Positions 15,066 through 25,184 of a DNA stretch of 64,000 nt are shown in pieces. The DNA is from Sphingobacteriaceae bacterium. GTDB lineage: Bacteria; Bacteroidota; Bacteroidia; B-17B0; Aurantibacillaceae. Positions within the stretch are counted from its first letter, which is position 1. Each line of letters opens with the position of its first letter. Made by a program: the position numbers and the translations under genes. The notes beneath the pieces were generated by a model, which searched no databases, had not been told where the DNA came from, and was given only the letters and a program-made list of their open reading frames with translations. The stretch spans positions 62,001 to 126,000 of the forward strand of contig CANKBS010000003.1 of assembly GCA_947480015.1 (NCBI GenBank), written 5' to 3'.

Positions 15066-15127
15066 AACTGTTATTATCTCATTTTTTAAAATCCTGGTTT
15101 TAGTGATTTGGGCGCCTCCCCCAGAAA

Positions 15128-15161
15128 CAAAAGGCTTTGTTTAATTTCGCTAAGCCTTTTG
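15128..15161 (+). terminator. Hairpin after the fibronectin-like gene
   Basis: Perfect 10 bp stem CAAAAGGCTT (15128-15137) / AAGCCTTTTG (15152-15161) with a 14 nt loop, 60 bp after the stop at 15065. It lacks a clean U-tract outside the stem, so it may be a weak terminator. Part of the loop (TTCGCT) can instead pair with AGCGAA at 15167-15172. Confidence 0.4.
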
Positions 15162-15204: not shown

Positions 15205-15310
15205 TTTTGGGCGCCCGGGCGGGCTGCGCCGGGCTCGCTGTTCGCTCGGCTTTTTTCAGCGGTAAAAGAAACCGCTGAAAAAGAGCTAAACCCTTTGCAT
15301 CCCTGGCGCT
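15205..15310 (+). repeat. GC-rich intergenic repeat, copy 1 (direct orientation)
   Basis: About 106 bp, much richer in GC than its surroundings. It begins TTTTGGGCGCCCGGGCGGGC and ends CATCCCTGGCGC. It contains a GC hairpin (GCCGGG/CTCGGC, about 15228-15250) and a T/A-flanked hairpin with arms TTTTTCAGCGG (15252-15262) and CCGCTGAAAAA (15272-15282). A second copy, inverted, lies at 16977-17083. The 15066-15505 gap otherwise holds only the hairpin at 15128. An open frame of 67 codons from 15202 runs through the repeat but is not gene-like. Confidence 0.85.
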
Positions 15311-15505
15311 CAAGGGATTTTAAGCTCCACCACTTTTCTATTAGTTTTAAATTTATACTGATTTACTTCTTTTTAAAAAACAGAAACCTCTTCGGATTTG
15401 TTTAATGCTCAATTACTGTCTTGCATGTTCACATTAAAACAGTTTAAAACTATTTGGTTTTTTAGTTATTGAAAGAGAGCTAAAACTTAATTTAGCGCTT
15501 ATTAC

Positions 15506-16873
15506 ATGCGTCATTTACTTTTCTTAATACTCTTTTTTTCGCTGGCATTTGCAAATGCACAGAAACGTCCAAGTCCCAAAGCTACCCGCATTTTATTTAT
15601 TTTTGATGCCAGCAAAAGCATGATCGCCAAACATCAAAACACCAGCCGTATGGATGGTGCCAAAGAACTGTTTTATAAATTCATCGATAGTTTAAGCCGC
15701 GATAAAAGTCTGCAATTTGCCCTGCGTATGTATGGCCATACCGTAAAATACCCTCCGGGCGATTGTAAAGACAGTAAGCTCATTGTTCCTTTTTCTCCCA
15801 ATAACCTAGCCCTCATCAAACAAAAAGTAAGTGAAGCAAAACCCACTGGCATCACGCCCATTGAGCATTCCATGACCGAAGCCGCCAATGATTTTAAAGA
15901 TAACAAAACCAATAACATTGTGATCCTGATCACCGACGGTATTGAAGAATGCGGTGGCGATCCTTGTAAAGCCCGTCAAAAATTAATGGAGAAAGGCATC
16001 GTATTTAAACCTTTTATTATTGGTATCGGCTTAAGTCCCGAACAAATAAAAACTTTCGAATGTGTGGGCACCTTTTACGATTACGATAATTCATCTACTT
16101 TTTCAAACATTTCTAACATCATTCAACAACAAAAACTTAATAAAACTACGGCCCAGGTTAATTTATTGGACAATACTTCCAAACCCAAAGAGAGCAATGT
16201 TAACATGACCTTTTACGATGTGAACCGTAAAGAATACAAATACAATTTAATTCACACACTTAATTATCAGGAAAATCCCGATACCTTGTTACTGGATGAT
16301 TATCCTACTTATAAAGTGATAGCGCATACCATTCCTGAAACTGAAAGCAAGGAAATAAAATTATCTACCGGTAAACATACCATCATTCCTATTGATGCGC
16401 CCCAAGGTTCTTTAACCGTAAAACGCAGCGAAGGGGCCTATAACTTCAATGAAAAAGTAAAGTGTATTGTAAGACGTGCCAACGACATGACTACCCTGAA
16501 TGTTCAGCCCCTTAACACCACCGAAAAATACATTACCGGCAATTACGACCTTGAAATACTTACACTTCCCCGCATCCAAATTAATCAAAGCACCATCGAA
16601 CAATCAAAATTAAAAAGCATCGACATCCCCAATGCAGGTATTTTACAAGTGAGGTGTTTAGAAGCCGGCGATGGTAGTATTTTGGTTAAACGCAACGGTA
16701 AACTGGAATGGGTTTGCAATTTAACAAGCCAAACCCAACAGACCTTTTTTTTACAACCCGGCAATTATATTGCGGTATGGCGCGCCAAGGCCTTACGTGG
16801 CAGTATTTATACGGTGGAACGTAAATTCAGTATCAGTTCCGATAATCAAAGTACGGTAGAGTTTTATAAATAA
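15506..16873 (+). CDS. Secreted von Willebrand factor type A domain protein
   Basis: A 455-residue exported protein: signal peptide (residues 1-18, ending FANAQ), then a vWA domain (about 25-215) with a complete metal-ion-dependent adhesion site: D34-A-S36-K-S38, the Thr in KPTGITPIEHS and the Asp in LITDGIEECGGD. Four cysteines in the domain (GDCKDSK, EECGGDPC and FECVG) could form disulfides. The C-terminal 240 residues look like two or three beta-sandwich modules without a recognised family. No sorting domain or lipobox is visible, so it is probably periplasmic. The gene sits alone between two inverted copies of a GC-rich repeat. The partner is unknown. Confidence 0.85.
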   Translation: MRHLLFLILFFSLAFANAQKRPSPKATRILFIFDASKSMIAKHQNTSRMDGAKELFYKFIDSLSRDKSLQFALRMYGHTVKYPPGDCKDSKLIVPFSPNNLALIKQKVSEAKPTGITPIEHSMTEAANDFKDNKTNNIVILITDGIEECGGDPCKARQKLMEKGIVFKPFIIGIGLSPEQIKTFECVGTFYDYDNSSTFSNISNIIQQQKLNKTTAQVNLLDNTSKPKESNVNMTFYDVNRKEYKYNLIHTLNYQENPDTLLLDDYPTYKVIAHTIPETESKEIKLSTGKHTIIPIDAPQGSLTVKRSEGAYNFNEKVKCIVRRANDMTTLNVQPLNTTEKYITGNYDLEILTLPRIQINQSTIEQSKLKSIDIPNAGILQVRCLEAGDGSILVKRNGKLEWVCNLTSQTQQTFFLQPGNYIAVWRAKALRGSIYTVERKFSISSDNQSTVEFYK

Positions 16874-16976
16874 GGAAATCAATAACGTAATTTTAATAAT
16901 TGTTCGTCCGGGTATATTTTTATTCAGGAAAGCTAAAATATTATGTTTTGTGACACATTTAATGGAACGTTATTTC

Positions 16977-17083
16977 GCGCCAGGGATGTGAAGGGTTTAG
17001 TTCTTTTTTGCCTCCTGTCCTTTGGAGGCAAAAAAAACCGCAGCGCAGCGGAGCCCGGAGCAGCCCGCCCGGGCGCCCAAAAG
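16977..17083 (-). repeat. GC-rich intergenic repeat, copy 2 (inverted)
   Basis: Read on the minus strand it begins TTTTGGGCGCCCGGGCGGGC and ends CATCCCTGGCGC like copy 1, with a shared block GAxCTAAACCCTT between. Its internal hairpin occupies 17004-17015 and 17024-17035 (arms TTTTTTGCCTCC/GGAGGCAAAAAA), so the stem sequence differs from copy 1 while the pairing is kept. It lies between the vWA gene and the mntR operator. Confidence 0.85.
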
Positions 17084-17104
17084 AAAATCGACCACTTTTG
17101 TATT

Positions 17105-17120
17105 TTTAGGCTAGCCTAAA
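17105..17120 (+). promoter_or_regulatory. DtxR/MntR-type operator palindrome
   Basis: TTTAGGCTAGCCTAAA is a perfect 16 bp palindrome with the TTAGG...CCTAA half-sites typical of DtxR/IdeR/MntR operators. It lies just upstream of the -33 element of mntR, so it is a probable autoregulatory, metal-responsive site for the mntR-mntH operon. Confidence 0.8.
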
Positions 17121-17127
17121 CTTTTTT

Positions 17128-17160: not shown

Positions 17161-17829
17161 ATGGAAGTTTCTCTTACCGAAGAAAATTACATCAAAGCCA
17201 TTTTTTCGCTCAGCAAGCACAATCCTGCTATAGGCGTTAGTACTAACGATCTTTCGGAGCATTTAAATAATAAAGCCGGCTCGGTTACCGACATGCTCAA
17301 ACGTCTGGCCGAAAAAAAACTCATTCATTACGAAAAATACAAAGGCGTTTTTTTAAGTGCCAAAGGTGAGAAAATGGCGCTGGCCATTGTCCGCAAACAC
17401 CGACTCTGGGAAGTTTTTTTACTGGATAAACTGCAATTCACCTGGGATGAAGTGCACGACATAGCCGAACAACTCGAACACATTAAAAGTGAAGAACTCA
17501 TTGAACGCCTCGATGCTTTTTTAGGTCATCCCAAATTTGACCCGCATGGCGATCCCATTCCGAATGCAAAAGGCCAGTTAAACAGCAGCAAAGCTAAACC
17601 CTTAAATCAATTTAAAACCAAAGGCAATTATGTTTTTGTGGGCGTGAACGAACATTCAAAGCCCTTCCTGCAACATCTGAGCGCCCTGGGTTTAAAAATA
17701 GGAGAAAGCATTAAAGTAGAAGAGATCAATGCTTTTGACAATTCGTTCCGCGTGAAGATCAATAAAAAAGAATCTGCTTTTTTTAGTGATAAAGTAAGTG
17801 CCAATATTTTAGTTGAAGTAAAAAAATGA
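17161..17829 (+). CDS. mntR: DtxR/MntR-family metal-dependent repressor
   Basis: A 222-residue regulator that binds its operator when loaded with divalent metal. It has an N-terminal winged helix (SLTEENYIKAIFSLS; VSTNDLSEHLNNKAGSVTDM recognition region, residues 3-65), then the dimerisation and metal domain (HRLWEVFLLDKLQFTWDEVH; EQLEHI; LGHPKFDPHGDPIP, residues 75-145) and a C-terminal SH3-like FeoA domain (about 150-220). It overlaps the Nramp transporter gene by 4 bp (ATGA) and is preceded by a matching palindrome. The neighbour argues for Mn(II) over Fe(II), though DtxR members can respond to either. Confidence 0.9.
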   Translation: MEVSLTEENYIKAIFSLSKHNPAIGVSTNDLSEHLNNKAGSVTDMLKRLAEKKLIHYEKYKGVFLSAKGEKMALAIVRKHRLWEVFLLDKLQFTWDEVHDIAEQLEHIKSEELIERLDAFLGHPKFDPHGDPIPNAKGQLNSSKAKPLNQFKTKGNYVFVGVNEHSKPFLQHLSALGLKIGESIKVEEINAFDNSFRVKINKKESAFFSDKVSANILVEVKK

Positions 17830-24833: not shown

Positions 24834-24890
24834 GGTTTGAAAAAAACTGTGTTTTGAACCTCAACTCCCGAAGGTTTTAAACCATGTGTA

Positions 24891-25079
24891 ATTGGCAGGT
24901 CTTCTGACTTATCCTTAACTTGAACGCCTTCCCGCTCAGATCAAAAATCTTTACAGTGGCTATCGATTGTTCAAGTTCTTAAAAGGACTCACAGCAGCGG
25001 GTACTATTAGCGAATCTCACGCTATTCCCTATTAATCTTTTCTTTTGCCCGTTTGGCATTTTGCCCGTCGGGTTCAAAA
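24891..25079 (-). ncRNA. Cobalamin (AdoCbl/B12) riboswitch
   Basis: On the minus strand the B12 box AGTCAGAAGACCTGCC lies at 24909-24894, preceded by the conserved GCCACTG (around 24954-24960), the GGGAATAGCGTGAGATTC segment (around 25012-25029) and ACCCGCTGCTGTGAGTCC. These in order are diagnostic of the class. GGTTCAAAA at 25071-25079 can pair with TTTTGAACC at 24852-24860, closing the aptamer. The TTG start of the receptor is at 24833, so control is probably at translation initiation or by early termination. High B12 should repress the whole uptake operon. Confidence 0.95.
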
Positions 25080-25184
25080 AAGAACCAATTTGCAGAAGTA
25101 AAATTATAAAATGTATTCTTATTTAAATAATTTATTTTTCTTTGTATTCTTATTCATTTAATAGCCAGAATGGTAGCTTAGTTT

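Follow-up and report, generated by a model that had tools for sequence, protein, structure and literature searches.

The window analysed here, a stretch of 64,000 nucleotides from a Sphingobacteriaceae bacterium, contains a gene for a vWA-domain protein between two inverted copies of a GC-rich repeat, which raises the question of whether repeats and gene form a single mobile unit or whether the repeats are independent copies of a dispersed element, and if so, of what kind. The bracketing itself, claimed in a preliminary description of the sequence, is borne out by our comparison: the coordinates of the two copies agree (Table 1) and their outer inverted arms of 32 nt each are 97% (15205-15236/17051-17082) and 91% (15278-15309/16977-17008) identical. 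As also described, the copies are far richer in GC than their surroundings (0.59 and 0.61 versus 0.38 for the window, where just 0.07% of all 106-mers reach at least 0.58), and their inner hairpins have different stems that nevertheless pair fully, at 12 of 12 positions both in copy 1 (TTTTTCAGCGGT/ACCGCTGAAAAA) and in copy 2 (TTTTTTGCCTCC/GGAGGCAAAAAA). A model of the repeat family, which we call R1, found both copies in the window at 1e-28 and 1e-26 and otherwise one weak, self-overlapping match. The short sequence TTTGGGCGCC at 15107-15116, suspected of being a degraded third head, proved to be part of 14 letters starting at 15107 (TTTGGGCGCCTCCC) that are the exact head of another R1 subfamily; since this head is followed by a degenerate hairpin, the fragment is a truncated copy.

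Table 1. Features of the vWA locus (window positions) and R1 elements with target duplications elsewhere.
Feature	Position or length	Strand	Basis or remark
Structured repeat R1, copy 1	15205-15309	+	sequence comparison and family model
R1, copy 2, inverted relative to copy 1	16977-17083	-	sequence comparison and family model
Copy 1, helix P1	15211-15215/15305-15309	+	covariation
Copy 1, helix P2	15221-15227/15297-15303	+	covariation
Copy 1, helix P3	15231-15233/15291-15293	+	covariation
Copy 1, variable P4	about 15236-15244	+	
Copy 1, helix P5	15248-15263/15271-15287	+	covariation; bulged G at 15283
Copy 2, P5			stem other than in copy 1, GCCTCC/GGAGGC; GGTT/GAAC variant at the base of P5
Truncated third copy	15107-15160	+	head TTTGGGCGCCTCCC and hairpin AAAAGGCTT/AAGCCTTTT
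3' tail of copy 1	15310-15350	+	TCAAGGGATTTTAAGCTCC..; homologous tail after many other copies
vWA-domain gene between the copies	15506-16873	+	core gene, outside the element
MntR-like regulator gene past copy 2	17161-17829	+	adjacent to the vWA gene in repeat-free relatives
L330 (G017)	288 bp		R1 core, TAAATA on both sides
L323 (G017)			R1 core, duplication TAGGTA
L332 (G017)	294 bp		R1 core, duplication TAAGTA
L334 (G017)			R1 core, duplication TAGGTA
L317 (G017)			R1 core, duplication TAATTA
L007 (own genome)			duplication TAAGTA
L287/L020 (own genome)			duplication TAATTA
L288 (own genome)			duplication TAAATA

Two other features of the window are worth recording. Directly before the MntR-like gene lies a palindrome, TTTTTAGGCTAGCCTAAAC (17103-17121), which resembles sequences at the same place in three relatives (L064, L067, L073) and is likely to be the operator of the gene; copy 2 is inserted immediately upstream of it. 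Further along, a cobalamin riboswitch occupies positions 24877-25104 on the minus strand (81.5 bits).

From the two different stems, the preliminary description had argued that the fold of the repeat is kept and not its sequence, and covariation across many copies strongly supports maintenance of the fold by compensatory change. We obtained a first structure with RNAalifold from 15 intact copies of the same genome and added helices that it had missed by reading the aligned copies. The resulting fold consists of an outer helix P1 (GCGCC/GGCGC) followed by an optional variable hairpin, P1.1, then P2 (GGG-C-YRY/RYR-T-CCC), P3 (xGG/CCx'), a variable hairpin P4, and P5, which starts with GG(C/T)T-TTTT and continues into a variable stem with a bulged G on its 3' side. 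In an alignment of 34 copies, made with the first model, which had no P2 and P3, 95.5% of the cells pair and 133 are compensatory, compared to 39 after shuffling and 20-28 after sliding. For 92 copies the values are 95.2% and 438, compared to 132 shuffled and 52-86 slid, in an alignment that leans to the new model because it was fitted to it. The stems of other copies thus covary in both sets. P1 is complementary in all nine distant copies that we read, in six sequence versions across the phylum (GCGTT/AACGC, GCATT/AATGC, GCGTG/CACGC, GCGCT/AGCGC, GCGTC/GACGC, GCAAT/ATTGC). A bidirectional terminator, which we also considered, is ruled out from the sequence, as the T and A tracts are reversed, with T before and A after the stem.

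R1 is not confined to the vWA locus. In the genome of origin (3.77 Mb, 66 contigs), blastn gave 43 matches and the covariance model 53 at E<1e-3 and 68 at E<1, which puts the copy number at about 60. One of the two possibilities raised at the outset, that the copies are independent and belong to a dispersed structured element, is upheld, and neither outcome that the preliminary description named as refuting it, unpaired stems elsewhere or a family of just these two copies, was observed. Blastn searches with copy 1 found a match in 20 of 60 relatives. A pattern of the conserved 3' part occurred at 74 places in 84,980 genomes, all of them in assemblies of Bacteroidota except for one Planctomycetota MAG, which we take for a chance match or a binning error, and a wider sample of the phylum, searched with stricter filters, yielded relatives in eight more genomes from six other families. 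No significant match was found in the plasmid and phage records searched, nor was the R1 subtype found in the viral contigs searched. Many R1 copies carry a second, shorter repeat, CACAGGCTGGCTCATCAAGCCACAGGCTTGATGCCCT, nested in their hairpin loops up to three times per copy (seen at L018:1533-1645, L024:1500-1716, L012, L014, L020 and L028).

The other possibility, that repeat, gene and repeat form a mobilisable cassette that moves the vWA gene, was suggested by the arrangement of inverted copies 1.7 kb apart around a single gene, but we now regard it as scarcely tenable. The vWA gene has relatives in 35 of 37 genomes, with 66-80% identity within the genus, and is thus a core gene. The empty sites whose existence bears on this question do occur: in L064 and L067 the vWA gene has the same left neighbour and is directly followed by the MntR gene, and both gaps lack the repeat; L065 and L068 also retain the left neighbour of the vWA gene without a repeat. 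Further, the two copies come from different subfamilies. The genome G010 has an R1 copy of yet another subtype upstream of its vWA gene, and the gap at this place must therefore have been hit more than once.

One of the known families closest to R1 is Flavo-1 (RF01705), which Weinberg et al. listed in 2010 as a probable non-cis-regulatory RNA of Bacteroidetes (PMC2864571) and which has been placed among the most abundant families of sRNA (PMC9029176). In the window copies no Rfam family reaches its threshold; copy 1 scores 16.2 bits with RF01705, against a gathering cut-off of 42, and copy 2 is unlisted. In contrast, distant relatives found with R1-based models score 62.0, 59.9, 62.3 and 55.2 bits, and a locus of the same genus, L057, scores 53.7. 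The RF01705 matches on the distant relatives have the coordinates of the R1 matches on the opposite strand and, conversely, a model built from R1 copies (R2) recovers L171, L174, L177 and L178 at the RF01705 coordinates, again on the opposite strand. The window elements are therefore a divergent sister subtype and not Flavo-1 members, since they remain under the Rfam threshold while their relatives pass it; judged by these reciprocal matches, R1 as a whole belongs to a Flavo-1 superfamily. Both have the helix order P2-P3-P5 with the bulged G, occur in Bacteroidota and are present in many copies, whereas R1 differs in its extra hairpin P4, GC-richer junctions and GGCGC ends. The Rfam model, which describes an sRNA gene on the strand opposite to R1, lacks the outer P1 helix and the optional P1.1 hairpin that are present in R1.

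Two side observations concern Flavo-1 itself. At L057:1344-1607, an R1 copy and a canonical Flavo-1 stand tail to tail about 30 bp apart, resembling a REP doublet. In viral contigs we found 14 matches to the canonical 3' end, three of which score as Flavo-1. The matches that exceed the Flavo-1 gathering cut-off (L362:2627-2703, L359:314-392, L353:6189-6256) lie on IMG/VR contigs classed as viral and could be host flanks.

This relationship raises the question of whether R1 is an RNA element, that is an sRNA gene or a 3'-UTR element whose copies are retained for a function in the host. Such a reading would agree with the RNA-like covariation, with the typing of Flavo-1 as sRNA in Rfam and with the location of the copies downstream of genes. 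We could classify the gene context of 63 copies: 25 are in convergent gaps, 34 in tandem gaps and 4 in divergent gaps, and the median distance from an upstream stop codon is 43 nt. This distribution fits a target often containing TAA or TAG, or else selection against insertion into promoters. In the tandem gaps the Flavo-1 strand is sense to the preceding gene in 23 cases versus 11, a lean that is suggestive only. Against a retained RNA stand the dozens of copies, the variety of their flanks, the existence of empty sites and the target duplications; wobble pairs give no clear strand preference. In the transcriptome of Flavobacterium psychrophilum, moreover, Flavo-1 matches are sense or antisense alike and many lie outside transcribed regions, and the study found no role for them (PMC9723704). 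We therefore judge an RNA element to be improbable.

The target duplications come from small elements that contain the R1 core. In congeneric species we found this core within elements of 286-363 bp, which have terminal inverted repeats (TIRs) of 18 bp (GTCGAACCTCAAAAAGTC) and are flanked by 6-bp target duplications of the form TANNTA (Table 1); in these elements the distance inward from one of the two TIRs to the core is about 25-30 nt. With RF01705, the TIR-bearing copy L330 scores 29.6 bits at the same place and strand. Three further elements (L313, L318, L326) have the same ends around other folded or unrecognised bodies, with exact duplications of TACTTA (twice) and TAATTA. When we aligned the flanks of close copies in the genome of origin, they showed a right part of about 170 nt, common to 16 places and ending in TTTGAGGCTCGAC, and a left sequence, TTAGTCGAGCCTCAAAAAGT, about 30 nt ahead of the core; read inward, right and left ends are one terminal repeat. 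The stop codon of the preceding gene and the duplicated target overlap at L287, L288 and L007. Separately, we noted another family of about 370 bp with no evident long ORF (L294:1500-1869, L300:1147-1516, L304:1500 onward), which also has the TTAGTCGAGCC ends but a different, apparently folded body; the exact TANNTA duplications of L313, L318 and L326 are from other genomes.

The TIR signal is found in a minority of the R1 copies (83-101 scored). A search with the TIR pattern TTAGTCGRRCCTCAAAWAGTC gave 27 matches in 9 of 60 genomes versus 3 for a reversed control, but these loci say nothing on frequency because they were picked by their TIR. Among unselected copies, about seven have a TIR at 13 or more of 18 positions versus two in a control region farther upstream, and scoring all unselected copies for TIR plus duplication showed no excess over the control, for which reason we restrict the TIR claim to a subset. 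Neither window copy is flanked by a recognisable TIR pair or target duplication. A subfamily of near-identical copies in the same genome (TCCCAATCAGG) likewise has the core in common but no TIR, and the core may therefore also move in another way. Either decay removes the TIRs more quickly than the folded core disappears, or, as we consider distinctly less probable, the core moves by itself.

In its full form, the latter explanation holds that the folded core is a mobile unit of its own, guided by single-stranded DNA or structure and moved by some recombinase, which only in some lineages was taken up into a TIR element. It would explain why most copies have no recognisable TIR, why the similarity within recent subfamilies of the genome of origin covers the core and 40-80 nt of tail and leaves out the flanks, and why copies across the phylum have just the core in common; the unrelated stems within one genome also recall elements recognised by their structure, such as attC or REP. 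Yet wherever TIRs and an exact 6-bp duplication are sharp, the core sits inside a larger unit, a remnant of the left TIR recurs at the same offset of 25-33 nt in several species, and no Y1 transposase is linked to R1. On balance we hold an autonomous core to be possible but doubtful.

The absence of a linked Y1 transposase bears equally on the suggestion, made in the preliminary description, that R1 is REP-like and moved by a TnpA-REP (RAYT) transposase. Like R1, REP and REPIN sequences are dispersed, intergenic palindromic repeats that often form inverted pairs downstream of genes, and RAYTs of the Bacteroidetes subclass 2.6 have been reported to be flanked by atypical structures (PMC6006769). 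We searched the genome of origin, 60 relatives and 10 picked genomes for proteins of the Y1_Tnp family and checked about 75 loci for R1. The sole Y1 protein in the genome of origin is of a non-REP type (DHTH/WQ/YIQNQEEHH) and has no R1 beside it; over all loci only one R1 was nearby, at a distance of 480 bp, and the genome concerned has abundant R1. Nine genes of the RAYT 2.6 type in the genus are flanked by short, plain palindromes such as CCGCAGGATTTGTAATCCTGCGG and not by R1. Further, a REP is a hairpin of 20-65 nt with a tetranucleotide of the GTAG/GTGG type, whereas R1 folds over about 105 nt into several helices around a three-way junction and flanks no RAYT. The suggestion does not survive these searches, and we regard mobilisation by a RAYT as very unlikely. 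As an aside, the RAYT 2.6-like genes L150, L153, L155, L156, L157, L162 and L168 each have a short palindrome of their own (e.g. CCGCAGGATTTGTAATCCTGCGG), and in L150 tandem copies of it lie upstream of the gene.

A better candidate for a partner is an intact IS5-type element of 1441 bp (L345:1334-2774) in the species G025, where R1 copies are numerous. Its transposase of 441 residues scores 414 bits with the NCBIfam family transpos_IS5_1 (NF033578), its TIRs are GTCCTTCCTTAAAAACTC/GTCCTTCCTTAAAAAGCC, and TAATTA is present on both sides. Its ends, of the form GTC...CCT.AAAAA, and its TANNTA duplication resemble those of the R1 elements with TIRs, and 14 of 18 positions agree between its left end and the right end of L330; unlike them, it encodes a transposase and has no R1 core. 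We found no IS with ends identical to the TIRs of R1 elements and, in a weak search, no close transposase in the genome of origin. From the similar ends of this one intact element we infer that an IS5-type family is the likely source of transposase for the R1 elements. A broken IS with a T1-like end (L339, in G041) was discarded as an autonomous partner, since no second end was found.

Taken together, we consider it probable that the window repeats are separate old insertions of a non-autonomous, MITE-like and structure-bearing DNA transposon, whose core is a divergent sister of Flavo-1; the window copies would descend from TIR-bearing elements. In this proposal, a dispersed element of Bacteroidota, with TIRs of about 18 bp (GTCGAACCTCAAAAAGTC) and the core near one end, would behave as a non-autonomous DNA transposon, for which an IS5-type DDE transposase (transpos_IS5_1) recognising related ends would supply transposition in trans. 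Insertion duplicates 6 bp of a TANNTA target, and stop codons (CTAATTAA, CTAAATAG) are often overlapped by such targets, in agreement with the location of copies just past the ends of genes and their rarity in divergent promoter gaps. The fold from P1 to P5 with its conserved bulged G is maintained by compensatory change and may act either as single-stranded DNA, for instance in recognition by the transposase or in replication, or at the RNA level, within the 3' regions of transcripts nearby.

Bacterial MITEs, such as MITECca01 of Cardinium, which derives from IS982 (PMC9769881), offer a close parallel: like the R1 elements with TIRs, they are short, lack ORFs, have TIRs and target duplications and occur in many copies, and a related autonomous IS may exist for R1 as well. 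They differ in that the body of the R1 elements contains a conserved fold of several helices, which varies through compensatory change, that the link between R1 and an IS is one of similar ends only, and that most R1 copies have no TIR. If true, a MITE-like element whose body is kept together by a conserved fold and not by sequence would be an uncommon case.

The presence of an R1-type fold inside small TIR elements of sister species suggests that the so-called Flavo-1 RNA gene is transposon-like DNA. More tentatively, the whole Flavo-1 superfamily might be phylum-wide mobile DNA whose folded form, preserved through compensatory changes as the sequence drifts, is itself recognised by the mobilising machinery or the replication fork, although we would not count this as the likelier outcome. 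Flavo-1 has been a candidate structured RNA with an unexplained function since 2010, and transposon-borne DNA is a concrete alternative that can be tested on existing genomes, with the caution that covariation alone does not prove an RNA gene. The main interest of the locus lies in the tie between this long-unexplained motif and an element that has TIRs and target duplications.
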